A stretch of DNA of 64,000 nt, taken from positions 1,240,001-1,304,000 of the forward strand of contig NZ_RYFW01000001.1 of NCBI RefSeq assembly GCF_004138335.1, in the 5' to 3' direction. The position numbers and the translations under genes were made by a program. Below the pieces are notes generated by a model, which was not told the origin of the DNA, searched no databases, and saw only the letters and a list, made by a program, of their open reading frames with translations. The DNA comes from Peristeroidobacter agariperforans (lineage in GTDB: Bacteria > Pseudomonadota > Gammaproteobacteria > Steroidobacterales > Steroidobacteraceae). Below, piece by piece: positions 7,106 to 23,610 of this stretch (position 1 is its first letter; each line of letters begins with the position of its first letter).

Positions 7106-8170
7106 TCAGGTCCAACCGGCCGCCGGCGTCGTCAGGCCGGTGGTTTCGTCCAGGTCGAACACGCGATTCAACCATTGCATCGCGCCGCCGGCTGCGCCCT
7201 TCACCAGGTTATCGATGGCGCACATCACGGCGACGGATTCCCCATTGGCAGCCGCGCTCAGGAACGCGTAGTTGCTGGCAGCCACATCTTTTACATGAGG
7301 CATCTCGCCGACGACACGAACGAAAGGCTTGCCGGCATAGAAGCCTTTCAACGCCTCGAGCAGCTCGGGCGTTTTGATCGGCTTCAGCGCCTTCGCCTGC
7401 ACCGTTACGTGAATGCCACGCGCGAACGGGCCGGAGTGCGGAACGAAGTTGAACTCCGCCGGCACTTGCGACGCCACTTGCGCCAGCGCTGCGATCTCCG
7501 GCGTATGCCGGTGCGACAGCGGATTGTACGCGTACAGGTCGCTGTGCCGCTGCGGATGGTGCGTGCCCGCGCTCGGCGTGCGGCCCGAGCCGGTGCTGCC
7601 CGTGATACCGGCAGCAAACAAACGCGGCTCGACCAGGCCTAGCGACAGCAACGGCACGCTCGACAGCAACACTGCCGTCGCGAAGCAGCCCGGATGCGCC
7701 ACATGCGGTGTCGTGATCTTGTCCAGGTGCTCTGGCACCGCGCAGCTGAACTGGGCGATGCGATTCGGCGCTCCGTGAGCATGCTTGTACACCGCCTCAT
7801 AGGCGCTGGCCGTGCTGTAGCGATAGTCGGCCGAAATATCGATGACGCGCGGCTTCGTGCCTTTCGCTTCGGCAGCCGCGAGGACGTCGTCGATGAGCTT
7901 CGCCGCCACGCCATGAGGCGCGGCCGAAATGATGGCCGACTTCGGCAGCGTGCCGACCAGCTGTTTCACCTCGTCCAGGCTGGAGAACTTCAGCTCGGGA
8001 TAGATCGGCGCCAGGTGCGCAAAGAACTTGGCCACCGGTTCGCCGGGCTGGCTGTCCGAAAGAATGGCTTTCAGCTCCAGGCGCGGATGACCGGCGATCA
8101 GGCGCAGCAGCTCGCCCGACACGTAGCCGGTGCCGCCCAGGACGATGACAGGAATCTTTGCGTCGCTCAT
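7106..8170 (-). CDS. argC: N-acetyl-gamma-glutamyl-phosphate reductase
   Basis: NADPH-dependent reductase of 354 residues that turns N-acylglutamyl phosphate into the semialdehyde. The N-terminal Rossmann motif is VIVLGGTGYVSGELLRL, and the catalytic Cys lies in HPGCFATAVLLSS. The block GSTGSGRTPSAGTHHPQRH is typical of the family's catalytic domain. The start MSDAKIPVIV was chosen because its ATG forms an ATGA overlap with the stop of the P-loop gene upstream. The open frame further upstream is antisense-like low-complexity sequence. Confidence 0.95.
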   Translation of the reverse strand: MSDAKIPVIVLGGTGYVSGELLRLIAGHPRLELKAILSDSQPGEPVAKFFAHLAPIYPELKFSSLDEVKQLVGTLPKSAIISAAPHGVAAKLIDDVLAAAEAKGTKPRVIDISADYRYSTASAYEAVYKHAHGAPNRIAQFSCAVPEHLDKITTPHVAHPGCFATAVLLSSVPLLSLGLVEPRLFAAGITGSTGSGRTPSAGTHHPQRHSDLYAYNPLSHRHTPEIAALAQVASQVPAEFNFVPHSGPFARGIHVTVQAKALKPIKTPELLEALKGFYAGKPFVRVVGEMPHVKDVAASNYAFLSAAANGESVAVMCAIDNLVKGAAGGAMQWLNRVFDLDETTGLTTPAAGWT

Positions 8171-9249
8171 TCTTCGGTCACTTCCGCCTTGGTCTTCGGA
8201 ACCAGCTTCAACGAATCGATCACGCAGTCGCCCAGCGCCGCGCCATCGGTGATGGCGTTGAAGGCCGGCACGCCGAACTTGTCCTTGATGATGTTCACGC
8301 CGACCGCGTTGTCCGTTGCCGGACCGGTGACGACCGACGGCTCGATGCCGAACTGTTCGCGCAGCAGCTTCACGCCGCCCCACGCAGCAACTGGATCGTT
8401 CGCCGACAACACCACCGACGTGAGCGCACTACGAATATCCGGCGAGGACAGGATCGCTTCGACGCCGTACGCGCCGAGGATGCCGTCGCCCAGCTCGAAC
8501 ACGATCACATCCGGCTCGCCTTGTGACATTTCCGTCAGCAGCGCGCGCGTGATCGCTGGGCCCACCTTCGCAGTGGTCGTGACGACGCCCAGATCGGTGA
8601 AGATCATGCTCTTGCGAGCGCCGGCATCTTCCATCGCCAGAATGTCACGACGCAGAGAAACACCGGTGGCCTTGAACGCGTGCACGTTCAAGCCACGATG
8701 CCGCATGCGGGCAACGATGGCGCACGCCGCGGCCGTCTTGCCTGCTTCCATACACGTGCCCGCAAGCGCCACGACCGGCACATTCCGCGTGTTCACAGCG
8801 ACGTTGTAGTCGAGACGTTTATAGCCGACCCGCGCCGGCACGCCGATGCGCTCGCCCAGATACGGGAACTGCAACACCACGCCGATGACCCTGGCGTCGA
8901 ACGGCGTGCCCTTCTCCGGGTTCACCGATTCGACCACGCCGAGCACGCCGCCGATGTTCAGCACCTGGATGATGTCGCCTTCCTTCACCGCGGTCGGCAA
9001 ATGACCCGAGTAGCCGAACAGCGCCTGACGATGGCCGAGCGCACCGACGATGACGTCGCCCTTGGCGACCTTGGCCATGCGGCCGCTGGTCAGCTCCAGG
9101 GTGTTGTAGTTCGACTTGTTGTTGAGGATCTCGACAACCAGCACCACGCCTTCCTCGCAAGGAATGTTGTCCGTGGCGACACGCAACTCATGCTTCAGGT
9201 TCAGCGCCTGAGTGATGGATGCGATCTTGTCGACGACTACTGTCTTCAT
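8167..9249 (-). CDS. P-loop protein of unknown function in the arginine cluster
   Basis: A 360-residue protein I do not recognise as a named enzyme. The N-terminal half (1-155) is predicted beta-rich, with GDVIVGALGHRQALFGYSGH and FPYLGERIGVPARVGYKR. The C-terminal half opens with a Walker A loop GTCMEAGKT at 164-172 and MRHRGLNVHAFKATGVSLRRD just after it, continuing with VIVFELGDGILGAYGVE. That layout recalls dethiobiotin-synthetase/MobB folds and, loosely, DUF1611 proteins, one of which (DgcN) has been described as a D-glutamate N-acetyltransferase. It lies between argG and argC and is coupled to argC by ATGA, so a role in arginine synthesis is likely. Acylation of glutamate is a hypothesis only. 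No transmembrane segment or signal peptide is seen. Confidence 0.8.
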   Translation of the reverse strand: MKTVVVDKIASITQALNLKHELRVATDNIPCEEGVVLVVEILNNKSNYNTLELTSGRMAKVAKGDVIVGALGHRQALFGYSGHLPTAVKEGDIIQVLNIGGVLGVVESVNPEKGTPFDARVIGVVLQFPYLGERIGVPARVGYKRLDYNVAVNTRNVPVVALAGTCMEAGKTAAACAIVARMRHRGLNVHAFKATGVSLRRDILAMEDAGARKSMIFTDLGVVTTTAKVGPAITRALLTEMSQGEPDVIVFELGDGILGAYGVEAILSSPDIRSALTSVVLSANDPVAAWGGVKLLREQFGIEPSVVTGPATDNAVGVNIIKDKFGVPAFNAITDGAALGDCVIDSLKLVPKTKAEVTEE

Positions 9250-9291
9250 GGCTGTGTTCGATTCACCTGTTCAGAAGTTAAAGAAAACAAC

Positions 9292-10512
9292 TCACTTGTT
9301 CTGCCCAGCACGGGTCCAGAACATGCCGGGCAGGCCGACCATCTTCGAGAAGCCCAGGGCATCGGCTGCTGTCCACTCACCGGCGGCTTCGCCATAGACG
9401 CCCTTGGAGGCGGCCATGATGGAGTAGGGCGAATTCACGCCGGCGACGAATGCGTTGCCCGGGCGGTACTGCACCTTCACTTCACCGGTCACGCGCGCCT
9501 GCGAATTCACGAACAGCGCTTCCATGTCGCGGCACACAGGATCCAGATGCTGGCCTTCGTGCACCAGATCGCCGTACGGGCCGGACAACATTTCTTTCAC
9601 GCGCTGTTGACGGCCGGTCATCACCAGCTTTTCCAGCTCGCGATGCGCAGTGATCAGCACTTCAGCGGCGGGTGCTTCGAACGCAACGCGGCCCTTCGTG
9701 CCAATGATGGTGTCGCCCAGGTGAATGCCCCGACCGACGCCGAACTTCGCGCCGATCGCTTCGACCCGTTCGATCACGCTCACCGGATCGAGCTTCACGC
9801 CGTCCAGGCTCGCGGGAATGCCCTTATCGAAGCCGATGGTGTGCACTTCCGGTGCCTGCGGATTCGAGTACGCATCCTTCGACAGCACCCACGCATGATC
9901 GGGAATGCTGCCGTCCGACGTAAGCGTCTCTTTACCACCGATCGTCACGCCCCACAGGCCGCGATTGACCGAATAGGCAGCGCCGTACGGCGGGATGGTG
10001 AGATTCCGATCCTGCAGATACTTCAATTGATCGGGACGCTTGAACGCCTGATCGCGCACCGGCGCGAGAATCGTCAGCTCGGGCGCGAGCGTGCGCAGCG
10101 CGACTTCGAAGCGTACTTGATCGTTGCCGGCGGCGGTGCAGCCGTGCGCGATCACTTTCGTGCCCAGCTTCTTCGCGTATTCAGCGATGGTCTGCGCCTG
10201 CATGACGCGCTCGGCGCCGACGCACAGCGGATACATCTGGCCGCGCTTCACGTTGCCCATGATCAGGTACTTGATCACCTGCTCGAAGTAATCCTTCTTC
10301 GCCTCGACCAGGATGTGATCCTTCGCACCCAGCGCGCGCGCACGCTGATCCAGCACTTTCGCCGCTTCGGCATCGATGCCGCCGGTATCGACCGTCACGG
10401 TGATGATCGGGCGCTGGTAGTTTTCCGACAGCCACGGCACCAGGAATGACGTGTCGAGGCCGCCGGAGAAGGCCAGCAGAATCGGTTCGTTGCCAGGAGG
10501 AAGTGTGCTCAT
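9292..10512 (-). CDS. argG: Argininosuccinate synthase
   Basis: Joins citrulline and aspartate with ATP to make argininosuccinate. It has the N-type ATP pyrophosphatase P-loop LLAFSGGLDTSFLVPWL near residues 11-27, followed by IAHGCTAAGNDQVRFE, GKETLTSDGSIPDHAW and NSPYSIMAASKGVYGEAAGEW. Length is 406 residues, normal for the short ArgG type. It sits between the P-loop gene (42-base gap) and argR (63-base gap), all on the same strand. It is the first biosynthetic gene after the regulator. Confidence 0.96.
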   Translation of the reverse strand: MSTLPPGNEPILLAFSGGLDTSFLVPWLSENYQRPIITVTVDTGGIDAEAAKVLDQRARALGAKDHILVEAKKDYFEQVIKYLIMGNVKRGQMYPLCVGAERVMQAQTIAEYAKKLGTKVIAHGCTAAGNDQVRFEVALRTLAPELTILAPVRDQAFKRPDQLKYLQDRNLTIPPYGAAYSVNRGLWGVTIGGKETLTSDGSIPDHAWVLSKDAYSNPQAPEVHTIGFDKGIPASLDGVKLDPVSVIERVEAIGAKFGVGRGIHLGDTIIGTKGRVAFEAPAAEVLITAHRELEKLVMTGRQQRVKEMLSGPYGDLVHEGQHLDPVCRDMEALFVNSQARVTGEVKVQYRPGNAFVAGVNSPYSIMAASKGVYGEAAGEWTAADALGFSKMVGLPGMFWTRAGQNK

Positions 10513-10575
10513 GCTCGTTTCCGTATCGATACAAATAGCTGGTCGGTTTGAGAGTGCGTGCGAGGCAGCGGCCGC

Positions 10576-11031
10576 TCAGATGCCGAAGATGCCGCGCAGG
10601 CGTTCGCGCAGCTTCTTCTGATCTTTGGGCTCGTCGGTCGCGATGAAAATGGTGTCGTCGCCCGAGATGGTGCCGACCACTTCGGACCAGTCGGAGCTGT
10701 CGATGGCGACGGCCACGCTTTGCGCCGTGCCGGTCGTGGTCTTGAGGACCGTCAGCGACGTGCCGGCGGTCTTGATCTCGAGCACGAACCGCGAGACGGC
10801 GGCGAATGGGTTGTCGGCCGCGGCGGCGTCTTGGGCGGGCAGGATGTAGCGGTCGCCGGCCTTGGCGACGCGGAGCTCGCGCAGGTCGCGGCTGACGCTC
10901 GATTGAGTCGCGTCAAATCCTTGTTTGTGAAGGATTTTCACCAATTCGTCCTGATTGCGCACGGTCGACTCTCCGATGATTCGGAGAATCGCGGCTCGGC
11001 GCGCGACGGATTGGTGAATCTCAGCAGCCAT
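10576..11031 (-). CDS. argR: Arginine repressor ArgR
   Basis: A 151-residue ArgR family regulator. It has a winged-helix DNA-binding N-terminus (NQDELVKILHKQGFDATQSSVSRDLRELRV) and a C-terminal oligomerisation/arginine-binding domain with GTAQSVAVAIDSSDWSEVVGTISGDDTIF. The segment GTISGDDTIFI carries the Asp pair that contacts arginine in hexameric ArgR. It is the promoter-proximal gene of the cluster. A perfect operator-like palindrome lies 70 bases upstream of its start, so autoregulation and arginine repression of the whole operon are likely. Confidence 0.95.
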   Translation of the reverse strand: MAAEIHQSVARRAAILRIIGESTVRNQDELVKILHKQGFDATQSSVSRDLRELRVAKAGDRYILPAQDAAAADNPFAAVSRFVLEIKTAGTSLTVLKTTTGTAQSVAVAIDSSDWSEVVGTISGDDTIFIATDEPKDQKKLRERLRGIFGI

Positions 11032-11096
11032 GTCGGTGAGAGCAGCCTCGGTTGCGGCACAGGCGCCCAGACGCGCCTGTGCATAAAAAGGCGCGC

Positions 11097-11125
11097 ATCA
11101 TGCATAATTATGCAGAGGTCGTCAA
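11097..11125 (-). promoter_or_regulatory. Predicted arginine operon promoter with ArgR operator
   Basis: On the minus strand a -35-like TTGACG (11120-11125) and a -10-like CATGAT (11097-11102) are separated by 17 bases. The perfect 14-base palindrome TGCATAATTATGCA (11101-11114) lies in the spacer and touches the -10. It fits the ArgR box pattern TGNATNWWNATNCA. A second half-site TGCATAAAAA occurs at 11080-11089, as expected for tandem ARG boxes. Arginine-bound ArgR sitting here would block polymerase. The motif is seen directly; its function is inferred. Confidence 0.7.
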
Positions 11126-11139
11126 TGATGGATTTTGCG

Positions 11140-12063
11140 TCAGGTCCGACGGCGCGAGGCCAGTACTCCATCGAGGGCGAAAACGGCGAGCGCAGTCCAG
11201 ATCATCGAGAAACCGACCACGCGCGGGCCGCTGAACGATTCCCCAAATACCAGGACCGCGCAGGCCAGCTGCAGGCTGGGTGCGATGTATTGCAGTAGTC
11301 CGACGGTGAACAAGGGAATGCGCCGCGCACCCACGGCGAACAGGACCAGCGGAACGGCGGTCAGCGGTCCACCCACTAATAAGAGAAGAGTGGTCTCGAA
11401 CGAGTTCTGGCTCATCGCGCCACTGCCCGAGAACTCACACCACAGCACATAGCCCGCCGCGAACGGCAGCAACAACAGCGTTTCGCCCGTGAAACCGGGC
11501 AGCGCTTCGACGTTGGCAGTCTTCCGCACCAGTCCATACAGGCCGAAGCTCAGCGCCAGCGCGATCGACACATACGGCGGCCGACCGGCAGCCCAGGTGA
11601 GATACAACACACCGGCCGCGGCGATCGCCACGGACAGCCATTGCATACGATTGAGCCGCTCGCGAAAACATACGACGCCGAGCGCCACGTTGAGCAGCGG
11701 ACCGATGAAATAACCGAGACTGATTTCCACGACGTGGGCCGTAGCGATGCCCCACATGAAAATCGACCAATTGATGGCGATGAAGGTCGCCGACGCGCAC
11801 AGCCTCAAGCGAACTTGCGGATTCGACAGCGCGCTCCACATCTGTTGAGTGTCGCCGCGCGCCGCCAGCCAGCCGAAACCGACCAGGCAACCCCATAACA
11901 TGCGGTGCGCGGTGATTTGCAGAACCGGGATGGCCTGCAACAGCTTCATATACAGCGGCATCAGCCCCCAGATCAGGAAGGCGGAGATGGCGGCGGAGAG
12001 GCCGCGGCCATCGATGCGTTGAGCCGCGGACGTGGCGTCGGCCACGTGAGAGGAATCGTTCAT
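11140..12063 (-). CDS. rarD: EamA/RarD family transporter
   Basis: A 307-residue inner-membrane protein of the drug/metabolite transporter superfamily with about ten hydrophobic segments. RarD-type signatures are SAFLIWGLMPLYMKLL at the start, ITAHRMLWG, INWSIFMWGIATAHVVEISLGYFIGPLLNV and LGLLQYI-like VGLLQYIAPSLQL near the C-terminus. The substrate is unknown for the family. It ends 108 bases before argR on the same strand, and the intervening region holds the separate arginine promoter, so it is probably not part of the arginine operon. Confidence 0.88.
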   Translation of the reverse strand: MNDSSHVADATSAAQRIDGRGLSAAISAFLIWGLMPLYMKLLQAIPVLQITAHRMLWGCLVGFGWLAARGDTQQMWSALSNPQVRLRLCASATFIAINWSIFMWGIATAHVVEISLGYFIGPLLNVALGVVCFRERLNRMQWLSVAIAAAGVLYLTWAAGRPPYVSIALALSFGLYGLVRKTANVEALPGFTGETLLLLPFAAGYVLWCEFSGSGAMSQNSFETTLLLLVGGPLTAVPLVLFAVGARRIPLFTVGLLQYIAPSLQLACAVLVFGESFSGPRVVGFSMIWTALAVFALDGVLASRRRT

Positions 12064-12191
12064 GGACGGGGGACAGTCTGCTGGGCGGCAATCATAGTGC
12101 AGTACGCAGTGGCATGTCGGGCTTTCTGAAGTTGCACGCGCCGCGCCGGCGCGAGAAGCTTCGAATCTCTTTACTGAATTCTCTGTTAGCT

Positions 12192-12803
<612 letters not shown>

Positions 12804-12806
12804 GCG

Positions 12807-13673
12807 ATGAGCGACACTCCGGCCCTGGGTTTCCTACCGCCCGAATGGTTCACGCGGGCGCTTGCCGTGCCGTGCGAGTCCCGCTATGTGGATGCCGGCG
12901 GCACGGCGATTCATTACTTGATCTGGAACGAGCACGAGACGCATAAGCCCGGTCTCGTGCTTGCGCATGGCTTTCGCGCCCACGCGCGCTGGTGGAGTTT
13001 CATCGCGCCCTTCTTCATCGAGCGCTTTCGCGTCGTTGCATTCGATTTCTCGGGCATGGGCGACAGCGGCAATCGCGATGAATACACCGACGAGAGTTAT
13101 GCACGCGACATTGTTGCTGTGATCGATGCGGCCGGCTTCGATCGGCCGGTCGTGGTTGGCCACAGCTTCGGCGGGGGACGAGTGCTGCAAGCGTGCGCTC
13201 AACATCCGAGCAAGGTCGGTCGAGCAATCATCGTGGATTCGCGCGTGCAGCTGCACGATGGCGAGCAAAAGCTTCCGGAGTTGCGTGCCAAGAAGATATA
13301 TCCGACGTACGAAGCCGCCCGAGCCCGCTTTCGGCTGATCCCGCCCGACAACAGGGCAGCGCCATATGTCATCAATTACGTCGCCGAGCATTCCATCAAG
13401 CGCGTCGACGATGGTTATACCTGGAAGTTCGACGATACGGGGCCGCGTCGAGTCGTGCACCGGAATGTTGCTGGCATGTTGAGGCGCATCGAAACGCCAG
13501 TGTCGTATATCTATGGCGACCACAGCCTGGTCGTTTCGCATGAGCATGCGGCAGAGATCGTTGCTCACATTCCCAATAGCCGCGGGCCGATCGCGATTCC
13601 CGAGTCGCACCATCACGTCATGCTGGATCAGCCGCTGTCGTTGATCGCGACGTTGCGGGCGCTGCTGTACTAA
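12807..13673 (+). CDS. Alpha/beta hydrolase
   Basis: A 288-residue alpha/beta hydrolase. The oxyanion-region motif is LAHGFRAHARWW, the nucleophile elbow is VVGHSFGGG with Ser in GHSFG, and a catalytic His is likely in ESHHHVMLDQP near the end. DFSGMGDSGNRDEYTDESYARDI matches the segment after strand 4 in esterases and epoxide-hydrolase-like members. There is no signal peptide, so it should be cytoplasmic. The substrate cannot be deduced. It is tightly spaced behind the Nudix gene and probably co-transcribed with it. Confidence 0.88.
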   Translation: MSDTPALGFLPPEWFTRALAVPCESRYVDAGGTAIHYLIWNEHETHKPGLVLAHGFRAHARWWSFIAPFFIERFRVVAFDFSGMGDSGNRDEYTDESYARDIVAVIDAAGFDRPVVVGHSFGGGRVLQACAQHPSKVGRAIIVDSRVQLHDGEQKLPELRAKKIYPTYEAARARFRLIPPDNRAAPYVINYVAEHSIKRVDDGYTWKFDDTGPRRVVHRNVAGMLRRIETPVSYIYGDHSLVVSHEHAAEIVAHIPNSRGPIAIPESHHHVMLDQPLSLIATLRALLY

Positions 13674-13701
13674 TAAACAGCGACTCGGGCATGCTGCCGC
13701 T

Positions 13702-13726
13702 CGCCCGCCGTGGTTGCCGGCGGGCG
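13702..13726. terminator. Hairpin between convergent genes
   Basis: A perfect 9-base inverted repeat CGCCCGCCG / CGGCGGGCG with a 7-base loop lies between the plus-strand hydrolase (ends 13673) and minus-strand tamB (ends 13773). It has no T tract on either side, so it may be only a weak or Rho-assisted bidirectional terminator. Confidence 0.45.
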
Positions 13727-13772
13727 CATCCCTATGCCTGGGGTGCCTCTAGTTGAGTTTTATAGCTCTCAA

Positions 13773-16700
13773 TCACTGCTCGATCGTGTACTCGAAGTCC
13801 GCGCTCTGATTCTCGCCGGCCTCGGTCTTGAATACCCACTTGTCGCTGATCGTGTAGCGCAGCTTCAGTGTGTTGATCGACTCTGTCAGCGAGATGCCGT
13901 AGCTGATGAACAGTCGGGGCGAGAGGAACTTGCCGAGCACCAGAGCCGTGTTCGCGCTACCGTCGGTGCCGAGCGAGCTTTCGACGCCGACTTCTTCCAG
14001 GCCGAGTCGACGGCCGATCTGCGAAGCGAGCAGGCCGCCGCCTTGCATGGTCAAAGTATCGCGAGCCGACGTCATGGTCGCCGTGTCGCTGCCCGACATC
14101 GAGTCGGGCGCTTTGCCGGTCAACAGATAAGTCACGATCTGAGTCTGCGGCATGGTCGGATCGGAAAAGAACGACAGCCGGGGCGCCTGCAACGTGCCGC
14201 GCACGTTCAGGCCGACGGTCACTGTCTCGATCCTGCGGCGGGCTTCGATGTCCAATCCCGGATCGTCGAGCGGTGAGGCTTCGAACAGCAGCTCGCCTTT
14301 ACTGATCTCGAGCTTCTGACCATAAGCCTCGTAACGTCCGTCGACGACGCTGAGCTCGCCGCGGCCGATGGGGACTTCGCCCGTGCGCACGGTCGTGCCG
14401 ACGCCGCCGGCGAGCCTGCCTTGCAAACCGAACGCCTCGACGCGCACGTCGTCGCCGATCGTGACTTTGATTTCGCTGTGCACGGTCGTGCGACCGGCGC
14501 GCTCCGATTCGGTTTCGTTGACGTAACGAGCATCGTCTGACGCGCGCACAGCGCCGGAGATCTGATTCGGCTGCACGCGCGCGCTCGGAATCAGCACATC
14601 GCCAGCGATATTGATCTGGCTGCCATCGATCAGAAAGCGCAGATCGGGAGAGGCGATCACGCGATACTCGGGCAAATCGGCCACGAGCAAGTTATTGCCG
14701 CGTAGATGCAAGTTGCCTTGCGACTTGCCTCCACTCCAGGTGAATCTTCCCTGCGCTGCCAGCTCGCCTTCACCGGCGCGGCCGGAGCCGCGAAAGTCCA
14801 GGCCGTTACTGGCAAGATCGGCGACCAGATTCAGATTGCGTAGCGCGAAGTTAACGCGATACGAATCCAGCTCGCCATTCGCCAGCTCGATGCGGCCGTT
14901 GACCTCGGGCTCGGCCAGCGTGCCGCCGATGGTGGCGTTGGCGGTCAGCAGCCCAGCCGCGTTATCCACTTCGGAAAACAGCAGCGGCAGAATGTTTGCG
15001 TCCGCCGCCCGTGCGCGCATGTCGCCGGTCAGCGGCAGGTGCATCAGGTCGTTACCCTGTTTTCGATCCAGATGCGCGTTGGCGAAGAGATAGGTATCGG
15101 TGAACGCTTGCACACCGAATGAGAAATCGATTTGCTCCGGCTTCGCGGTGGCGGCGAGACCGCCCGTGCCCAGATTCAGGGTCTCGGGCTCGGCGCCGGG
15201 CGGGCGATAGATGATGGCGGCGTCGATGATGCGCATGCCGGCTTCGCCTTGCCAAGGCTGATTCGGCGCGCCGAACGCGTGCACTCGGCCTTCGATGCGA
15301 CCACCGTACTCCGCTTCGTGCCCCGCGGGCGGCAGCAGCAGCGCCAACGGAATCTCATACCCGGACACCGTGCCTTCCCACGCACCCGCTCGCTGCCATT
15401 TGCCGCTCGCGCAAATGCGACCTGCGCCCGCAATCAAACAGAAGTTGTCGAGTTGTGCCCGGTCGCTCGACGCCATGATCTTCGCGGGCTCGGCGATCGA
15501 AATCTTGTCGTCGGCCTTGCCCGTGACCAGCTTGGTGGTCGTGACCGTCGCGTTCCATACCTTCTGATCGTAGGTGCCGGCGATCTGCATCTCGGCGGAT
15601 GGCGGCGTATCGCGTGGCGTCGCGGCTGCGCCTGTGACATTCATGTTGATGCGATGGTCGAGCGCTGTTCCTTCGCCACTGAGCTGCACGTTCTCGACGA
15701 TGGGACGACCGGCGCCGAGCCGGCTGGCGGAAGCGACCAGCCGCGACGGCGCCTTGCCGCTGGCGTCGATGTCGCCGTTGATCGTGAGCTGCCCCGCCTG
15801 CCACTGCTCATAGCGAATGTCATTCGCGGTCAGATCGCCGGTGATGTGCAGGCTCTTGAGCGGACCGCTGGCCTTGCCTTTCGAAACGATCCTGCCTTTC
15901 GCCTGCGGCAGCAAACGATCCAGCGACGGAGCGTCCAGCGACCAGGTTGCCTCGATCGTTTCCTTCCAGATGCCGTCCAATGACAGTCGTGCATCGGCAA
16001 GGCCCACACTCGCGTTGCGCACGGTCCAGCCGCCGCGACGATCTCTTTGTATGTAACCGCGACCTCGCAGCGGCTCGCCTCGCAGCGTGCCTCGAAGCTC
16101 GTTCACGTCGGCGATGAACGCAGCGTTCTTATCGAAGCCTTCGCCCGAGGCGTTGGCCGTCATGTTCACGGTGCCGGGAAAATCCTTGAACAATCCCGCT
16201 GGATTGACATTGGTTGTGCGCGTCGCGAGGCGCCACGCACGCGGCTGAGCGAATTGCAGCTCGCCGTTGCCCGTCAGCGATCCGCCCAGTGCATTTACCG
16301 AGTAGCTCGCAACCGTGACCTGCTCCTTCGAGATCACGCCTCTGGCCGAGCCGGCGCCCGAAGGAAAATTGGGCCCGGCCAGACTGGTCGTGACCGCGAA
16401 GTCATAGGGCAGCGGTCCGCTCAATGTGCCGTCGCCGTTGGAGCTGGTAACAATCGGTTTGCCACGCAATGGCCATTGCAGGTTCTGCCATTGTGCGGAC
16501 AGGTCGAGCGTCGGGGCCGAGCCGTCGAAGATCAGCTTGCCGGTCGTCTGCAGCGCCGCCGGCGAATCCTGCAGCTTGATGTCGGAATCCGTCAGGAACA
16601 GAGTGCGGTCCGCATATCGGCCGCGTGCATCGATCAGCAGTTGTTTCGCGTCGATCTCCGGAACGCCGAGCAACCCCTTGGCACGCACGCCCTGTGGATT

Positions 16701-17543
16701 GAGCTCCACGTCCAGCGCGATGTTCTGCAACGACAGCGGCGGATTCGGCAGCCACGGGTCGAGCAAGAATTGCTGCGACGTGACTTTACCCGCGACGTTC
16801 CAGCTGTCCTCCGGTCGTGTCATGACAGCAGCGACGCTGACGGCACTGGGTTTGAGCAACTCGCCGTTGATGTTCAGCTCATCGATGGTGCCATCGACCG
16901 AGCCCTTCAAATCCAGATCGACATCCGGCAGGTGCAGCTGGCCGCTGGTGTCGCCTTTCAATCCCATCGGCAGATCCGCCGCAGCCGCGGCCAGCAATTC
17001 GACATTGCCGGTGGCATCGAACAGATCGGCGTCGACGGCGAAGTCGCGCGCTCGAAGATGGGTGGAGTTGATCGTCACGCGTCCGCGAATGGTCTTCGCA
17101 TCGACGGCTGTGCCATTCATATGCACGTAGCGAACGTTGGAAAGCTCGACATTGCGCGCGTCAACGCGCAGGAACGGCGGCAAGAAACGCGGCGGTTTCT
17201 TGTTCGGGGGCATGTCGGCTTGGCGCAGCTCCACCAGCGACTCGCGCGCGGTCACCGATCCGGCCTGCAATGTTTGAATCAACAAGCCCCGCAGCTGGGG
17301 CTCGATGACGATGTCGTTCACCAGGACATGGACGCGTGGATGATTCAGCTCGAAGCGGTTGACGCGCAACGGGCCGGCCAGCGTGCCCGATACGCCTTCG
17401 ATCTTTACGTTGAAGCGCTCCAACCGCCACAGCTGCCCGGCAACCATCTGCAGGCCCGCTTCTGAGTACAGCAGCACGCCCACCGCGACCACCGGCACCA
17501 GCAGGATCACCGCGACAATGATCAGGATGAGGCGCGTGCGCAT
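13773..17543 (-). CDS. tamB: Translocation and assembly module inner-membrane component TamB
   Basis: A 1256-residue AsmA-like protein. One N-terminal membrane anchor (LILIIVAVILLVPVVAVGVLL) is followed by a very long repetitive beta-rich region predicted to form a lipid-conducting groove across the periplasm. The C-terminal TamB domain (PF04357) includes GRGELSVVDGRYEAYGQ, LSFFSDPTMPQTQIVTYLLTG and a terminal beta strand ending DFEYTIEQ. It works with TamA in outer-membrane protein assembly or phospholipid transport. The ATG shares its A with the tamA TGA stop, so the two are translationally coupled. A TTG one codon upstream is a less likely start. Confidence 0.95.
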   Translation of the reverse strand: MRTRLILIIVAVILLVPVVAVGVLLYSEAGLQMVAGQLWRLERFNVKIEGVSGTLAGPLRVNRFELNHPRVHVLVNDIVIEPQLRGLLIQTLQAGSVTARESLVELRQADMPPNKKPPRFLPPFLRVDARNVELSNVRYVHMNGTAVDAKTIRGRVTINSTHLRARDFAVDADLFDATGNVELLAAAAADLPMGLKGDTSGQLHLPDVDLDLKGSVDGTIDELNINGELLKPSAVSVAAVMTRPEDSWNVAGKVTSQQFLLDPWLPNPPLSLQNIALDVELNPQGVRAKGLLGVPEIDAKQLLIDARGRYADRTLFLTDSDIKLQDSPAALQTTGKLIFDGSAPTLDLSAQWQNLQWPLRGKPIVTSSNGDGTLSGPLPYDFAVTTSLAGPNFPSGAGSARGVISKEQVTVASYSVNALGGSLTGNGELQFAQPRAWRLATRTTNVNPAGLFKDFPGTVNMTANASGEGFDKNAAFIADVNELRGTLRGEPLRGRGYIQRDRRGGWTVRNASVGLADARLSLDGIWKETIEATWSLDAPSLDRLLPQAKGRIVSKGKASGPLKSLHITGDLTANDIRYEQWQAGQLTINGDIDASGKAPSRLVASASRLGAGRPIVENVQLSGEGTALDHRINMNVTGAAATPRDTPPSAEMQIAGTYDQKVWNATVTTTKLVTGKADDKISIAEPAKIMASSDRAQLDNFCLIAGAGRICASGKWQRAGAWEGTVSGYEIPLALLLPPAGHEAEYGGRIEGRVHAFGAPNQPWQGEAGMRIIDAAIIYRPPGAEPETLNLGTGGLAATAKPEQIDFSFGVQAFTDTYLFANAHLDRKQGNDLMHLPLTGDMRARAADANILPLLFSEVDNAAGLLTANATIGGTLAEPEVNGRIELANGELDSYRVNFALRNLNLVADLASNGLDFRGSGRAGEGELAAQGRFTWSGGKSQGNLHLRGNNLLVADLPEYRVIASPDLRFLIDGSQINIAGDVLIPSARVQPNQISGAVRASDDARYVNETESERAGRTTVHSEIKVTIGDDVRVEAFGLQGRLAGGVGTTVRTGEVPIGRGELSVVDGRYEAYGQKLEISKGELLFEASPLDDPGLDIEARRRIETVTVGLNVRGTLQAPRLSFFSDPTMPQTQIVTYLLTGKAPDSMSGSDTATMTSARDTLTMQGGGLLASQIGRRLGLEEVGVESSLGTDGSANTALVLGKFLSPRLFISYGISLTESINTLKLRYTISDKWVFKTEAGENQSADFEYTIEQ

Positions 17544-19276
17544 CAAAACTGGGTCGCGATGTATAGATGGAAGCGCGGGCTGCGTCCCGAGTCGGACAAC
17601 GCCTGAGCCACGTCGAGGCCGAAGGTGGCGACAGCGATGTTGTAGCGGGCGCCCAGGCCGGCCGAGTACTGCAGATCCGGCTCGCTGAAATCGTCGAAGG
17701 CGTTGCCGATGTCGTAGAAGGCCGCAACCCCGAAGTTACGAGGCAGGTCGCGCACGACCTCGACTGTGCCGGTCACAAGATTGCGTCCGCCGATCGTACG
17801 GCCTTGGTCATCCTTGGGTGAAAGCTCGTTGAGCGCGAAGCCGCGTACGCTGCCTTCGCCGCCGGCGAAGAAACGTTGCGAGGCGGGCAGGTCGGAGGTG
17901 GCGGCGATACGGCTGATGCCAAGCTCGCTGCGCAAGTGCAAATGCCACAGCTCCGTCATGTCGAAGACGCGCTCGCCTCTCAGGCGCAGTTGCAAGAACG
18001 AGGCGTCGGAGCCCAATGTTTCAGGTGAGCCGCGCAACTCGGCCGAGAAGGAGTAAGGACGCCTGCGTCCACCGACGATATAGCTCGGCAGTGTCGAGTA
18101 GCCGATGCTGGGCACGATATAAAAGTTCGTGCTCGACGTGTTATCGGCTTCGATGGTCTCTTCTTCCGCCAGCGCGATCTTCAGCACGCGCTGCCAACGG
18201 CCCATCACCTGTGTGAGGCCGGCACTGACTTCGGCTCGTTTGGACTGGGTGTCGCCGAGCTCTTCGTCGCGCAGCGTACCGGTGAACTCCAGTTTCTCGA
18301 GCGCGATGTCCATGACCGGCACGACGTAGCGACCGGTGAGGTCGCTCACGATGGATGAGCCGAGCAGCTCGAGCTTGAACTTGTGGCCGTCCTCGTTCAC
18401 GCGCCGGTTGTCCCACGTGAACTTGCCGCGTGTCTTGGTATCCGTGCCGTAGCCGATGCTGGCCGCGTAGCGATGTTTCCTGCTGGGCTCGGCGGTCACC
18501 GTGATCGGAACGGTGCGCGTCACGGGATCCGGATCGCCGCTCTCGATGTCGACGACCGAGAAGTATTGGGTATCGTCGAGCGTGTACTGCGTTCTCAGCA
18601 GTGTATCGAGCGTGTAGGGATCGCCGGGCTGCATGCGCAACAGCCGACGCATCGCTTCGTCGGTGATCACGTCCTGCGCGATGTCGATGTCGCCGAACAG
18701 ATAACGTTCGCCGGTATCGGCTTCGAGGTCGACGGTGGCGCGCCGCTCGAAGCGATCGATCACCAGGTCGTGCCGGGTGAGCTTGGCATCGAGATAGCCT
18801 TCGTTCTTGGCGATGCGCACCAGGTTGCCTTTGACGCGCTCGTAAGTGCCATGATTCAAGCGCAGGCCGGGCTTGATCTCTTGCTCATCGAGCAGCTCGC
18901 GAATCGCGCGCTCTTCGGCGCCGGGGCCGGTGACGTTGATGTTCACTTCCGACAGGCGCACCGGGCGGCCGGGCTCGATGTGGATGGTCACCTGCCAGCC
19001 AGCGCCTTCCTGCTTCACATCGTAGGTGACGGTGGGGTCGTAGAAGCCGAGAGGTTCGAGAGCCTGGCGCGTTTCGCTGACGATGCGCCGTTGCAAGCGG
19101 CTCATGACTTCCGCGGTCACATCCTCGCGCTCTGCGTAGCGCGTGAGACTGAGGAAGGCGCGAACGTTCGTCTGGATCGCTTCGCTGACCTCGGGGATCG
19201 TGATCTCGATCTTGGCGTCCGCCTGCAATGGCAACAGCAATGCTGTCGCCAGCACTCCCGTCGCCATCGCACGCAT
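17543..19276 (-). CDS. tamA: Outer-membrane Omp85-family protein TamA
   Basis: A 577-residue Omp85 protein. It has an N-terminal signal peptide (MATGVLATALLLPLQADA), three POTRA-like periplasmic repeats up to about 300, and a C-terminal 16-strand barrel. The conserved lid-lock motif appears as FFAGGEGSVRGFALNELSP and the last strand ends HLYIATQF with a terminal Phe. The start is uncertain: ATG 19276 gives a basic N-terminus, whereas ATG 19267 has the better spaced GAGG. A GTG at 19288 is also in frame. The frame further upstream overlaps the NRDE gene and is not TamA. It is paired with tamB directly downstream. Confidence 0.93.
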   Translation of the reverse strand: MRAMATGVLATALLLPLQADAKIEITIPEVSEAIQTNVRAFLSLTRYAEREDVTAEVMSRLQRRIVSETRQALEPLGFYDPTVTYDVKQEGAGWQVTIHIEPGRPVRLSEVNINVTGPGAEERAIRELLDEQEIKPGLRLNHGTYERVKGNLVRIAKNEGYLDAKLTRHDLVIDRFERRATVDLEADTGERYLFGDIDIAQDVITDEAMRRLLRMQPGDPYTLDTLLRTQYTLDDTQYFSVVDIESGDPDPVTRTVPITVTAEPSRKHRYAASIGYGTDTKTRGKFTWDNRRVNEDGHKFKLELLGSSIVSDLTGRYVVPVMDIALEKLEFTGTLRDEELGDTQSKRAEVSAGLTQVMGRWQRVLKIALAEEETIEADNTSSTNFYIVPSIGYSTLPSYIVGGRRRPYSFSAELRGSPETLGSDASFLQLRLRGERVFDMTELWHLHLRSELGISRIAATSDLPASQRFFAGGEGSVRGFALNELSPKDDQGRTIGGRNLVTGTVEVVRDLPRNFGVAAFYDIGNAFDDFSEPDLQYSAGLGARYNIAVATFGLDVAQALSDSGRSPRFHLYIATQF

Positions 19277-19307
19277 CCTCGCTGTCACGAGAGCGCCGCT
19301 CGTATGG

Positions 19308-20153
19308 CTATTCCGGTGAAGAATCGAACGAAGTGTCGGTCGCCACGGTCTCGTCGGGATCTTCGGCTTCGAACCAGACCTCGGGCACTTCGGCGCTGGT
19401 GAATTCGAAGCGCGAATTGCCGCTCTGGATGCCGGCGGCGTCGAAGCGACGCTCCTGAAGAATCGTGCGACCGGTGCGCTCCACCAGCAGCACGCTGGAG
19501 CAGCGGGTGCCATAGCGTTCGTTCACGATGAACGGCGCGGACACCACGCGTTCCCAATCCTCCGGCAGACCGGTGGACGGCAGGTCGGGGCCGGTGGCCT
19601 GCTCACGATCCGCGAGCATGGCGAACAGATCTTCCGGTGAGACCTCCGGTTGCGACAGCAAGCTGTTGAAGCGCTCGCGGGTGCGCGCCAGCTTGGGCCA
19701 CGGCGTATCGAGCAGATGATTGCTCAACCCGTACACGCCCGGCGCCAGCGCCCGGGGGTTCGGTCCGCGGTTGGAGAAGTAGTACAGCGCGCGCGTGCCG
19801 CCGACGAGCAGGTTGAAGCCCGAGTAGCGAGGTGCCGCGCCGCGCAGGTCGTCCAGGAATTCTTTCGGCGACGTAGCGCCGGTGAGGAAGCGCGGGATCA
19901 GCTGGCCGCGCGACGGGGCGTTCTCCACGGGCGCTTGCAGGTCGCGGTAGTTGGTCACGACGCCAAACCGCCCGGAGCGGGCCACCCCCAGCCAGGTGCC
20001 GTTGGCCTTGAGGTCCCGTCCGCCGAGGATGCGCGGATCGTCCTGCCACCAGTTCAGCGGCGCGGCCGGGCGGTCATGAAACTCGTCGCGGTTGCCGGCG
20101 AGGATCAAGCGGTAACGAGGATGGTGTTTCCAGGCGAGGACGAGCAGGCACAT
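19308..20153 (-). CDS. NRDE/TANGO2 family protein
   Basis: A 281-residue protein starting MCLLVLAWKHHPRYRLILAG, followed by NRDEFHDRP, the defining NRDE motif of the TANGO2 family (PF05742). Other family blocks are WLGVARSGRFGVVTNYRD, GFNLLVGG, YGLSNHLLDTPWPKL and RYGTRCSSVLLV. The fold belongs to the N-terminal-nucleophile-like hydrolases, with Cys2 as candidate nucleophile after Met removal. Bacterial members have been linked to heme handling, but the reaction is not firmly known. It lies upstream of tamA on the same strand and may share its transcript. Confidence 0.9.
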   Translation of the reverse strand: MCLLVLAWKHHPRYRLILAGNRDEFHDRPAAPLNWWQDDPRILGGRDLKANGTWLGVARSGRFGVVTNYRDLQAPVENAPSRGQLIPRFLTGATSPKEFLDDLRGAAPRYSGFNLLVGGTRALYYFSNRGPNPRALAPGVYGLSNHLLDTPWPKLARTRERFNSLLSQPEVSPEDLFAMLADREQATGPDLPSTGLPEDWERVVSAPFIVNERYGTRCSSVLLVERTGRTILQERRFDAAGIQSGNSRFEFTSAEVPEVWFEAEDPDETVATDTSFDSSPE

Positions 20154-20224: not shown

Positions 20225-21178
20225 TCAGCGGCGCGGCAATTGCCACATTCGTACGCCGGGCTCTTCCCGCAGCGGGCGCGCGGCGCCCGAGTCGTACCAA
20301 TCCTCGACCAGCCGGAAGGAGATCGAATGCGTGATCGGCAGCGCGACCGCTCCGCCAGCGATCTCGGCGCGCGTCCACCAGCGTACGTCCTCTAGCTCGT
20401 CGTCGACTCGCGAGATATCCGTGCTACGGGCGTATGCCGTAAATCCCAGCATCAACGATGAGGGGAAGGGCCAGGGCTGCGACGAATGGTAGTCCACCGC
20501 GCCCACAGCCACGCCAGTTTCCTCTCGGACTTCACGCGCGACGGCGTCTTCCAGGCTCTCGCCCGGCTCGACAAACCCGGCAATCGTCGAGTACCGGCCC
20601 GGTGGCCAGCTTGCCTGGCGGCCGAGCAGGGCGCGCTCGCCGTCCGTGACCAGCACGATGACTGCTGGATCGATGCGGGGAAACTGCTGCGAACGGCAGC
20701 TTTCATTGCTGCATCTGAGCACGTGGCCGCCATCGACGGCCTCCGTCCGCGAGCCGCACCGGCCGCAGAAGCGGTGACTTTCGCGCCAGTGAATCATGGC
20801 CCGGGCGTACGCCAGCAGCCCGGCCTCGTCAGCCGGCAGAGCGCCGGCGAGCATGCGCAGGTCCTGGAAGTCCACGGCGGGGTCGGCCAGTTGCGGGCGT
20901 TCGCCTGACACACCGACAGCAAAAACGGCCTGGCCGCGAAACTCGCCCAACCACACGTAATCGGTGACCACGGTGGCGCCAAGCGCCTGCACGCCGGTGA
21001 CGAAATGGGCGGTCACCAGTTCGCCCTGCCGAAGCACGGAATTGCGCGTTTGCCAGACCGGCACGAACAGCGTCCGCGGATCGGCCAGCACTGCCTGCAC
21101 ATGCGCCTCGTCCTTGCGACGGTGCGCGGCACGTTCGAGATAAGGTCCGGCGAGGATGTTGGGCGAGCGCGGTAGCAT
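20225..21178 (-). CDS. nudC: NADH pyrophosphatase / RNA NAD-decapping hydrolase NudC
   Basis: A 317-residue NudC. A zinc ribbon (FCGRCGSRTE ... CSNESCRSQQFPRIDP) is followed by the Nudix box GFVEPGESLEDAVAREVREE completed by TGV, and SQPWPFPSSLM, the SQPWPFPxS signature that separates NADH pyrophosphatases from other Nudix enzymes. It hydrolyses NAD(H) and removes NAD caps from RNA 5' ends. The second Cys pair is C-x4-C (CSNESC), the usual NudC spacing. It starts 12 bases downstream of the FlhC-like gene's stop on the same strand. Confidence 0.94.
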   Translation of the reverse strand: MLPRSPNILAGPYLERAAHRRKDEAHVQAVLADPRTLFVPVWQTRNSVLRQGELVTAHFVTGVQALGATVVTDYVWLGEFRGQAVFAVGVSGERPQLADPAVDFQDLRMLAGALPADEAGLLAYARAMIHWRESHRFCGRCGSRTEAVDGGHVLRCSNESCRSQQFPRIDPAVIVLVTDGERALLGRQASWPPGRYSTIAGFVEPGESLEDAVAREVREETGVAVGAVDYHSSQPWPFPSSLMLGFTAYARSTDISRVDDELEDVRWWTRAEIAGGAVALPITHSISFRLVEDWYDSGAARPLREEPGVRMWQLPRR

Positions 21179-21190
21179 GCAAGCAGTTTA

Positions 21191-21799
21191 TCAGTCGCGC
21201 ATTACAGCGCGTGAACTGGAACAGGGGCTGCTGGGCCTGGCGCGTCGGACGCGCGCCCGTTTCAGTCTGCATGTCGGACAGGTGTGGCGACAAAGGTTGA
21301 ATTTGTCGCGCAAGTAGTAGCTGTCGCAGTGTCGACAACGCACAGCGCGCAGGTCACCACTGCGGTTCAGCAGTTGAAGCAGGAACCACGCGTGCTCGAA
21401 CGAGAGCGTAGGCGTGTTGAGTAGCTGTTGGTGTGTTTCGTACGCATCGCAGAACCGGCGGCCATAATCGAGCACGCCAGCTGGCTCGGTCGGCATCTTG
21501 TTCTTTATTGCATACAAGAGGCCGAAGGCGGCGAACGCGCTCGCTAACAGCGACGATTCGAACTGCGCGCGAGTGTTGCGGACGAAGAAGGTGACCTGCC
21601 GCGGCGATTTGCCACGGCGGCGGCGCACGGGCGCTTCGCTCAGCTCATGTGCATAGGATTTGTAGAGGCGACGAATGCGATCGTCCGTGAGGCCCGTGCA
21701 TTCGCGAATCGTGCACGTACGCGCTTCATGACGAATCATGCGGAGCGCGAGGTCGTGCCGGCTGCGCTCGTTGCTGTACGAATCGTTATCCAGATCCAT
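21191..21799 (-). CDS. FlhC-like transcriptional regulator
   Basis: A 202-residue protein that resembles the flagellar master-regulator subunit FlhC. Residues 14-55 (RHDLALRMIRHEART, TGLTDDRIRRLYKSY) align with the FlhC N-terminal helices (LAMELITLGARLQML ... LSRGRLIKLYKEL). The C-terminal zinc site is C155-x2-C158 and C174-x2-C177, spaced by 15 residues as in FlhC. The middle (SFEHAWFLLQLLNRSGDLRAVRC) matches the FlhC segment [21 protein letters not shown]. A GGGAG ribosome site precedes the ATG. No flagellar genes occur in the window. The partner appears to be the divergently transcribed FlhD-like gene 138 bases away. Assignment is by pattern, not by search. Confidence 0.72.
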   Translation of the reverse strand: MDLDNDSYSNERSRHDLALRMIRHEARTCTIRECTGLTDDRIRRLYKSYAHELSEAPVRRRRGKSPRQVTFFVRNTRAQFESSLLASAFAAFGLLYAIKNKMPTEPAGVLDYGRRFCDAYETHQQLLNTPTLSFEHAWFLLQLLNRSGDLRAVRCRHCDSYYLRDKFNLCRHTCPTCRLKRARVRRARPSSPCSSSRAVMRD

Positions 21800-21937
21800 G
21801 CGAACTCCCTGTTCGGTGTGCCGTTCCGTTGCTGCGCCCGTTGACTTGTCTGCGGGCGCGCATAGTGTGCTCCGCAATTGACCTGCGCGTAAAGCTCCGA
21901 ATACATTCGTCGCCCCTTTGGTTCGCAAGGAAGCGAC

Positions 21938-22780
21938 ATGTCATCGAGCTACACGGAAGAGTCTTTGGTTCACGATGCGAGCGCACATTCGATTGCTGTC
22001 GAGAGAGCGACACTAGATCGTGATGTCGAGGTGCGTGCACCTGTGCTCAATTCAGCGCTGCTCGCGCGGATTCGTCAGCTCAATCTGGACTACCTGGAGC
22101 TGCTCGTAGCGGAGCGCGACTCCACGAATAGCTCAACCCAACTGCAACACTTGCCGCCGCGACAGAGCGCGGCACTCTGCTCACTATCGCCCCGCGCCCT
22201 GCGTGCACTCGCGGCGATGCCTTACACCCTGTATTCACTAGGGTTCGAGGACGAAAATTTTTGGAATGCAGTGTGCGAGAACGCGACGTCGTCCGCGAGC
22301 GCGTTGGCTGTTCAGCGCTATGCGCGCGTGGGAGATGCGTCCGCGCAGTGTTCGTTCTGTGAATTGGCGCTGCTACATGCGTGGCATGTCGCGGGCAAGA
22401 ACACAATGGCCGCGCGCATGGTGTACGCGATGCCTCATGCCACGGCCAAGCGGTTGGTGAACACACCGCTTTGGCAAATCAGATGCATTGCTGGAAGTTA
22501 TGGCGAACTGATGATGCCTCGCTGGCCGACGAATCCCGCCTTCTGGCCAGATCTGATCCGCTTCGCCGCTTCTAACGACGCTCGCCGACTGCACATGACG
22601 CGCTTGCTCGGCACTCAACTGATCGCGGCTGAACTGGAAGTGGCGTGCGAAATCTCGCGCCAATGCCCGCGCATCGCTCCCGCGTTAGCTTCGCCTCGGC
22701 TGCGCGCGAGAAAGTTGCAAATGGCGCCGCGGGTGTCGGTGGGGATGAAAACATCGATCCATGATGAGGAGTCCAAATAA
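21938..22780 (+). CDS. FlhD-like protein with probable tandem FlhD domains
   Basis: A 280-residue protein with no obvious annotation. Residues 37-113 resemble FlhD: LNSALLARIRQLNLDYLELL against [20 protein letters not shown], then ALCSLSPRALRALAAMPYTL and LGFEDENFWNAV against TLAALTLPQMVKLAETNQLV and FRFDSHQTITQL. Residues 138-212 repeat the pattern (CELALLHAWHVAGKNTMAAR, MPHATAKRLVNTP, NPAFWPDLIRFA), suggesting an internal duplication. FlhD is a dimer, so this may be a single-chain pseudo-dimer. AAGGAA precedes the ATG. The divergent neighbour is FlhC-like, which supports the reading. The C-terminal 60 residues have no assignment. Confidence 0.62.
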   Translation: MSSSYTEESLVHDASAHSIAVERATLDRDVEVRAPVLNSALLARIRQLNLDYLELLVAERDSTNSSTQLQHLPPRQSAALCSLSPRALRALAAMPYTLYSLGFEDENFWNAVCENATSSASALAVQRYARVGDASAQCSFCELALLHAWHVAGKNTMAARMVYAMPHATAKRLVNTPLWQIRCIAGSYGELMMPRWPTNPAFWPDLIRFAASNDARRLHMTRLLGTQLIAAELEVACEISRQCPRIAPALASPRLRARKLQMAPRVSVGMKTSIHDEESK

Positions 22781-22888: not shown

Positions 22889-23290
22889 ATGCCTAAAATC
22901 AATTTACGTGAGATCTATACCCGAACAGGTATTGTGATACCCGAGAATCGTAAGCCTTTGCACTGGGAGGGTTCCTCGAAGAAGAACTTCAAGGAGTTCC
23001 CGATTCCGGTTCAGAAGGACATGGGCGTGCGCTATTCGTCGTGCAGTTGGGCGGCACCCCTGATTCTGCCAAGCCATGGCGAGGGAACCGCTCGGGAGAG
23101 TACGAGTTGGTCGAGGATCATTGGGGTGGCGCCTTTCGCGCCGTCTATGGTGCGTATTGGCGATGTGCTGCACGCATTCCAGAAGAAATCCAGGTCCGGC
23201 ACTGCGACGCCACGGCCCGATGTGGAGCTGATCGAGAAGCGAATGAAGTCGGTGCTCGCCCGGTACGAGGCGAGCAGGAGAGTGCAATGA
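22889..23290 (+). pseudogene. HigB/RelE-like toxin gene with two compensating frameshifts
   Basis: The open frame gives 133 residues, but only its ends look like the Gp49/HigB-type toxin family. RKPLHWEGSSKKNFKEF ... VQKDMG (to base 23026) and VRIGDVLHAFQKKSRSGTAT ... DVELIEKRMKSVLARY (from 23150) are family-like. The middle, in this frame, is not. Shifting by two bases at 23027 restores ALFVVQLGGTPDSAKPWRG and GEYELVEDHWGGAFRAVY. A single extra G at 23149 then returns to the first frame. The expected toxin thus spans two frames, with net length change a multiple of three. Either the toxin is inactivated, leaving a scrambled core, or the read carries two errors. Its stop overlaps the antitoxin ATG (ATGA). 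Confidence 0.75.
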
Positions 23291-23610
23291 GTCGCAAGGC
23301 CAAAAATCCCAAGGGCACCACCAACGTCCTGGTAGATCTCGGTTTCGAGGATGCGGAAGAGCTGTCGGTGAAGGCTATGCTCGCGATGAAGCTCAATAGT
23401 CTGATCGACCAGCGCAGCCTGAGCCAGACGGAGGCGGCTGCCATCATCGGCATGAGTCAGCCCAAGGTCTCTCAGGTCCGACGCTATCAGCTTCAGAACA
23501 TCTCGCTCGAGCGCCTGATGCAGGCGCTGGTGTCGCTGGACCAACATGTCCAGATTGTTGTGCAGCCCGCGCGCCGCTCTCACGGGGCAGGTATTACTGT
23601 GGCTGCCTAG
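23287..23610 (+). CDS. XRE-family antitoxin (HigA-like)
   Basis: A 107-residue DNA-binding protein. The helix-turn-helix is LSQTEAAAIIGMSQPKVSQV at about 57-76, followed by LERLMQALVSLDQHVQIVV, the standard C-terminus of antitoxins paired with HigB/Gp49-type toxins. It begins inside the stop of the toxin frame (ATGA). The toxin-first order and the overlap are typical of HigBA-like modules. It appears intact although the toxin gene is frameshifted, so it may persist as a solitary regulator. It converges with dinB. Confidence 0.87.
   Translation: MSRKAKNPKGTTNVLVDLGFEDAEELSVKAMLAMKLNSLIDQRSLSQTEAAAIIGMSQPKVSQVRRYQLQNISLERLMQALVSLDQHVQIVVQPARRSHGAGITVAA

Follow-up and report, generated by a model that had tools for sequence, protein, structure and literature searches.

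Regulators of the FlhDC type are known in two settings, flagella and conjugative elements, and each chain of classical FlhD holds one FlhD domain. In the solved structures 8j56 and 1g8e, FlhD comprises about 110 residues. Complexes of this type described on mobile elements include AcaCD, SetCD, the FlhDC of SGI1 and BisDC (PMC4207636, PMC4605294, PMC4344509, PMC7423338). SetCD of SXT/R391 is described as an FlhDC-type activator outside flagella, carried on integrative conjugative elements, whose 19-bp binding site lies close to the -35 box and is unlike those of AcaCD and FlhDC (PMC4344509). In the description of BisDC of ICEclc, also located on a conjugative element, BisC resembles FlhC, BisD has a ParB domain and no FlhD domain that its authors detected, and production of the complex is subject to feedback from the complex itself (PMC7423338). 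A literature search covering mostly papers outside subscription returned no study of FlhDC in Steroidobacter, and no statement that AcaD of the IncA/C plasmids contains two FlhD domains. Here we describe a gene pair which we regard, with a probability of about 0.7, as a non-flagellar regulator of the FlhDC superfamily that would be old in its order, putatively controls itself, and has had copies captured by conjugative elements.

An FlhC-like protein and a protein with two FlhD-like domains

The window, that is the whole stretch of 64,000 nucleotides analysed, corresponds to positions 1,240,001-1,304,000 of contig C9 in a genome of 7.65 Mb. An FlhC-like gene on the minus strand (21191-21799; product P0001, 202 residues) and a gene on the plus strand (21938-22780; product P0002, 280 residues, hereafter D2) diverge from a gap of 138 bases (21800-21937). 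The longest open reading frame on the minus strand begins at a TTG codon at 21928. As the ATG at 21799 aligned with the starts of relatives, it was taken as the start of P0001.

A first-pass annotation, made from the letters alone, had considered the minus-strand product FlhC-like, and this assignment held. P0001 matched the Pfam FlhC family (PF05280) with 36.9 bits, above the cut-off of 27, and was the only FlhC match in the whole genome. Searched as a single sequence against PDB, it reached FlhC only at E 0.012. A profile of 43 FlhC-like rows, 40 of which matched Pfam FlhC (E up to 0.01), retrieved FlhC from Cupriavidus necator (8j56_C, E 5.2e-13) and from E. coli (2avu_E, 4.6e-9), with the next match at 0.12. 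The AlphaFold2 model of P0001 (pLDDT 88.2) had only three fold matches at E up to 0.001, namely 8j56_F (2.5e-6), 8j56_C (4.2e-6) and 2avu_E (2.0e-4). A predicted four-cysteine zinc site, C-x2-C-x15-C-x2-C, lies at residues 155-177 (21269-21337, minus strand). Its FlhC-like spacing of 15 residues, already pointed out in the first-pass annotation, was found in the window and in 42 of the 43 rows of alignment A2, the site being missing in L020. C155, C158 and C174 are invariant in this alignment and C177 is conserved in at least 90%.

In the plus-strand product, an FlhD-like segment and a second, similar block at residues 138-212 had been proposed. D2 gave 18.4 bits with Pfam FlhD (PF05247; E 0.0027) over residues 39-120, under the cut-off of 27, and even with E allowed up to 10 no other FlhD match was found in the genome. 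As a single sequence it had no match in PDB, and its second half on its own had none in Pfam. Profiles of the N-terminal and of the C-terminal halves, each with 43 rows, both found FlhD (8j56_A) as the best solved structure, at E 3.7e-9 and 2.4e-8, respectively, which bears out both proposed blocks. At E up to 1, Pfam FlhD was matched by 14 of the 43 N-terminal halves, including that of the window, and by 8 of the 43 C-terminal halves, that of the window not among them. By profile, D2 is shown to carry two FlhD-like domains, the first at residues 39-120 (22052-22297, plus strand) and the second at residues 136-236 (22343-22645, plus strand), the bounds of the latter being those of helices in the model.

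The two half profiles were weakly alike (17.7% probability). In single-domain FlhD-like proteins from outside the order (for example, L072 and L071), one and the same stretch was matched by both half profiles. A profile built from 13 such proteins recognized two stretches of P0002, at 40-119 with 21.8 bits and at 145-231 with 11.4 bits, no stretch in 880 shuffled sequences scoring above 6.6 bits. Both stretches exceeded this value in 16 of the 43 D2 rows, P0002 among them, in a test that is not independent because the 13 proteins were themselves found with the D2 profile. Two confident helical regions were seen in the AlphaFold2 model of D2 (pLDDT 83.8, pTM 0.78). A whole-chain Foldseek search with this model gave nothing significant (2avu_B with a probability of 0.60 and 8j56_B with 0.25, both at E 4.9), and the FlhD identity of D2 therefore rests on the profiles. 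DUF2857, a domain reported in BisC of ICEclc (PMC7423338), was weakly matched by 3 of the 43 C-terminal halves of D2 (alignment A4; best E 0.025).

We also examined AcaCD of the IncA/C plasmids (pRA1, L130). AcaC is FlhC-like (31.8 bits with Pfam, 93% probability by profile comparison). AcaD, a protein of 202 residues (L130, 46679-47284), scored 27.4 bits as a whole with Pfam FlhD over two stretches, and the profile of 13 proteins gave two FlhD domains (20.2 and 32.8 bits) collinear with those of D2. The first of these is weak, with no Pfam FlhD match for the first half alone and 1.3 and 5.0 bits with the two D2 half profiles; the D2 profile compared with AcaD gave 15% probability. Since AcaD scores as two FlhD domains, the FlhD fusion of D2 is not unique, and the doubled FlhD is probably an architecture shared between D2 and AcaD. 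The two systems differ in that acaD and acaC lie in tandem on a conjugative plasmid and in that AcaC, on a long branch, joins the classical FlhC rows in the tree described below.

Distribution, arrangement and neighbours of the pair

Named relatives of D2 were found in Steroidobacter agaridevorans (95% identity), Peristeroidobacter soli (80%), S. gossypii (71%) and a Steroidobacter metagenome bin (60%). NCBI taxonomy places Steroidobacter within Steroidobacterales. The order as used here is the genome grouping on which our counts are based, and is possibly wider than the Steroidobacterales of NCBI. In a set of 98 genomes, 72 had relatives of P0002 by single-sequence search and 38 had a Pfam FlhC match, which passed the cut-off in 30. 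When 196 genomes of the order were searched with profiles, 162 had D2 and 161 had FlhC, and among the 146 good genomes the figure was 133 for each. Twelve of the 20 genomes listed as having no match belong to families f13 and f14, the genomes of f13 being 1.1-1.6 Mb in size. When 369 genomes of the class were searched with the D2 profile, 16 matches were obtained; five, from the order, extended over most of the length, and the other 11 over one half.

A divergent layout in place of the classical flhD-flhC tandem had been noted for the window, and it proved to be the rule in related genomes: among 127 genomes in which the places of the two genes were compared, they were adjacent and divergent in 123, in tandem in one and on different contigs in three. 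The fetched loci contained 54 distinct divergent gaps, one of them that of a second-copy pair (L032), and tandem pairs at two loci of the order (L007 and L012) and at nine outside it.

Downstream of the FlhC-like gene lie genes for a nudC-like NUDIX hydrolase (20225-21178, minus strand; Pfam NUDIX, NUDIX-like and Zn_ribbon_NUD) and a TANGO2-like protein (19308-20153, minus strand; 235 bits with Pfam TANGO2, its start being inferred from the first residue of the domain). Relatives of the nudC-like and TANGO2-like products were found by blastp in 15 and 14, respectively, of 24 other stretches, a set that includes four close relatives and three stretches that are not neighbourhoods of the pair. 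TamA, TamB, dinB and DUF4399 are further neighbours in the window, the TamA- and TamB-like outer-membrane assembly genes (13776-19513, minus strand) being situated downstream of the TANGO2- and nudC-like genes. At L155 and L158 the gene following D2 was, by eye, an ABC ATPase, and in L158 a permease comes next. In the window, D2 is followed by what resembles the remnant of a toxin-antitoxin pair (22889-23607, plus strand), in which a frame of 133 residues, matching a Gp49-type family below cut-off over residues 93-120 only, precedes an antitoxin-like protein that matched HTH_37 (85.1 bits). A toxin-antitoxin identity for the FlhC-like/D2 pair itself was rejected, as neither gene matched such a family.

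A palindrome in the gap between the two genes

The first-pass annotation had taken the gap to be a natural target of the regulator. A palindrome search of 40 gaps outside the genus of the window yielded TTTGGTnnAAnTnnACCAAA, at 12.05 per sequence compared with 5.5-6.1 in five shuffled sets. Sites close to TTTGGT-N8-ACCAAA (score 14) were present in 36 of the 54 gaps, many of which had served to train the model that scored them. In 17 neighbourhoods (336,794 positions) there were 16 sites with a score of 12 or more, 12 of them with 14 or more, and 15 of the 16 sat between the two genes, the exception being L152:12821 with a score of 12.3. Ten exact copies of TTTGGT-N8-ACCAAA were found in 20 genomes, nine in the gap of the pair and the other at G561:C11:920. 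When one mismatch was allowed in these genomes, there were 72 sites compared with 44 for a reversed control, so that inexact sites elsewhere are indistinguishable from chance. A paired-palindrome pattern occurred in six of 196 genomes, at the gap of the pair in five and in one genome without a D2 match (G492), with one occurrence for the reversed control. A -10 box stood at the right distance from the palindrome in 13 of 36 cases towards D2 and 8 of 36 towards the FlhC-like gene, which is not above control (means of 0.21 and 0.20, largest values of 0.52 and 0.56, respectively). The presence of the palindrome in 36 of 54 gaps and its rarity elsewhere suggest that the pair regulates itself through this site across the order.

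In the genus of the window, the palindrome was found in none of ten gaps (score 14), and the window itself contained none at up to two mismatches. The view of the gap as a target is thus weaker in the genus. There it rests on another conserved element, TTGACCTGCGCGTAAAG (21878-21894, plus strand), identified by comparing gaps of the same genus. A loose form of this element (TTGAC ... GTAAA/GTGAA/GTTGA) was present in 8 of 10 such gaps, and the element is the sole match in the window at up to one mismatch, with 0.05 expected. By eye, we also noted TTGACC with TACATT (21902-21907) 18 bases beyond it, a putative promoter-like pair reading towards D2. The case for self-regulation is less direct in the window itself.

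The palindrome might belong to another DNA-binding protein, with the pair still a regulator whose own targets lie elsewhere. In line with this, the site is missing in the genus of the window and its form varies between lineages (GGT/ACC, GGG/CCC and GGTCC/GGACC). On the other hand, a site so nearly confined to one gene pair is fitted more simply by a self-regulator, and we consider a foreign owner of the site improbable.

Arrays of three palindromes were observed at L148 (876-1025) and L149 (3258-3409), in two species of one genus (G561 and G550), the array of G561 including the exact site at C11:920. Each array lies before a gene whose product, predicted to be secreted, has GSMGSG repeats and matched DUF5666 with 22.0 and 24.4 bits in the two species, below the cut-off of 27. 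DUF5666 homologues were present in 44 of 196 genomes. In 30 fetched DUF5666 loci, arrays were found only in the original two species, and L187 and L190 had one site each. This DUF5666-like protein is the only candidate target that we found.

Relation to flagella

With flagellar FlhDC (PF05247 and PF05280; 2AVU and 8J56) the pair shares both domains, the FlhC fold, the four-cysteine site and FlhD as the best solved structure for each half of D2. It differs in the doubling of FlhD within one chain, in the divergent arrangement of the genes and in its occurrence in many genomes without FliG. We examined whether the pair could be the flagellar master regulator of the order, merely rearranged. In addition to the homology of both subunits, this is favoured by a positive association between D2 and FliG (Fisher p 1.4e-4). 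FliG_C was matched in 92 of the 196 genomes, and 86 genomes contained both D2 and FliG, 76 D2 without FliG, six FliG without D2 and 28 neither. The association may, however, come from small genomes that lack both. As 76 of the 162 genomes with D2 had no FliG match, flagella are unlikely to be the general target. In addition, P0001 scored 32.4 bits with the flagellar FlhC equivalog, far below its cut-off of 216 bits, and the absence of flagellar genes nearby, noted in the first-pass annotation, was supported in that 13 of the 16 other frames between 11 and 33 kb of the window, those scanned, matched no flagellar family. The two FliG matches of the genome are on contigs C10 and C15, the window being on C9. 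A role as flagellar master regulator is thus very unlikely, and the pair probably controls something other than flagella.

Second copies and conjugative elements

Some genomes carry further FlhC-like/D2 pairs. Those at L168, L170, L171 and L172 lie near frames of 814-816 residues, the length of VirB4; Pfam identified VirB4-type proteins in three of them (L168, L171 and L172) and, in L168, also T4SS and TrbL proteins, the frame of L170 being judged by similarity of its read-out. A VirB4-like gene was not identified in the fetched stretches of L169, L173, L174, L176, L177 and L032/L175. In L168, a single run on one strand (7810-16050) comprises genes for a LuxR-type regulator with an autoinducer-binding domain, the FlhC-like protein, D2, the VirB4-type protein, T4SS and TrbL. 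In the genome of the window, L150 (3598-3918, on G000:C9) holds a 3' fragment of a second-copy D2; its tail reads identically to that of L168, and the fragment overlaps a relaxase-like frame on the opposite strand. No match was obtained when P0001, P0002 and one second-copy D2 were compared by tblastn with 72,556 plasmid records.

A tree of 64 FlhC rows placed nine labelled second copies together with L032, the second copy of G035, in one clade (98/88), of which one member (L176) comes from another family. This clade grouped with seven family f1 chromosomal copies (100/99) and was nested within the chromosomal copies overall, in a tree that is midpoint-rooted, in which several second copies have long branches and in which one classical row (L091, branch length 5.97) is placed among the chromosomal copies. 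The simple reading of this nesting is that mobile elements captured a host regulator.

It is hardly credible that the pair of the window is itself a remnant of a conjugative element, comparable to AcaCD or SetCD: known non-flagellar FlhDC-type activators do sit on mobile elements and some second copies, such as that of L168, have such a location, but the window pair lies among ordinary chromosomal genes (nudC, TANGO2, TamA, TamB, dinB), is found in over 80% of the sampled genomes of the order, and has second copies that branch within the chromosomal ones.

Discussion

The distribution, neighbours and tree support the view that the pair is a chromosomal regulator of long standing in the order, passed on mostly by vertical inheritance. 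Our preferred reading is that the two proteins would be the subunits of one transcription regulator of the FlhDC superfamily, one chain of which has two FlhD domains. Two D2 chains and two FlhC-like chains may then form an assembly resembling FlhD4C2, made of four chains where FlhD4C2 has six. In most sampled lineages outside Steroidobacter, the regulator would bind the 20-bp palindrome in its own gap and control its own two genes, as the near-restriction of the site to the gap points to; in the genus of the window, another conserved element would occupy the gap. Other targets appear to be few or specific to lineages, with the DUF5666 protein with GSMGSG repeats in two species as the candidate. 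Conjugative elements seem to have acquired copies of the pair, which there probably activate transfer genes in the manner of AcaCD and SetCD.

A more specific version, which we put forward only as a speculation with the odds against it, is that this non-flagellar regulator with its covalently doubled FlhD is a core switch, vertically inherited across the order, that acts mainly on its own divergent promoters, is self-reinforcing and possibly bistable with a small output, and was captured by conjugative elements as an activator of transfer.

What appears to be new here is the combination of a doubled FlhD with a chromosomal location, a divergent layout found order-wide, a putative site belonging to the pair and mobile offshoots. 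A conserved chromosomal and apparently non-flagellar branch with fused FlhD would make the assembly of FlhDC and its reading of DNA open to study in a simpler complex. The suggested direction of traffic is from a host regulator to conjugative elements. The finding points to an unstudied core regulator of the order.
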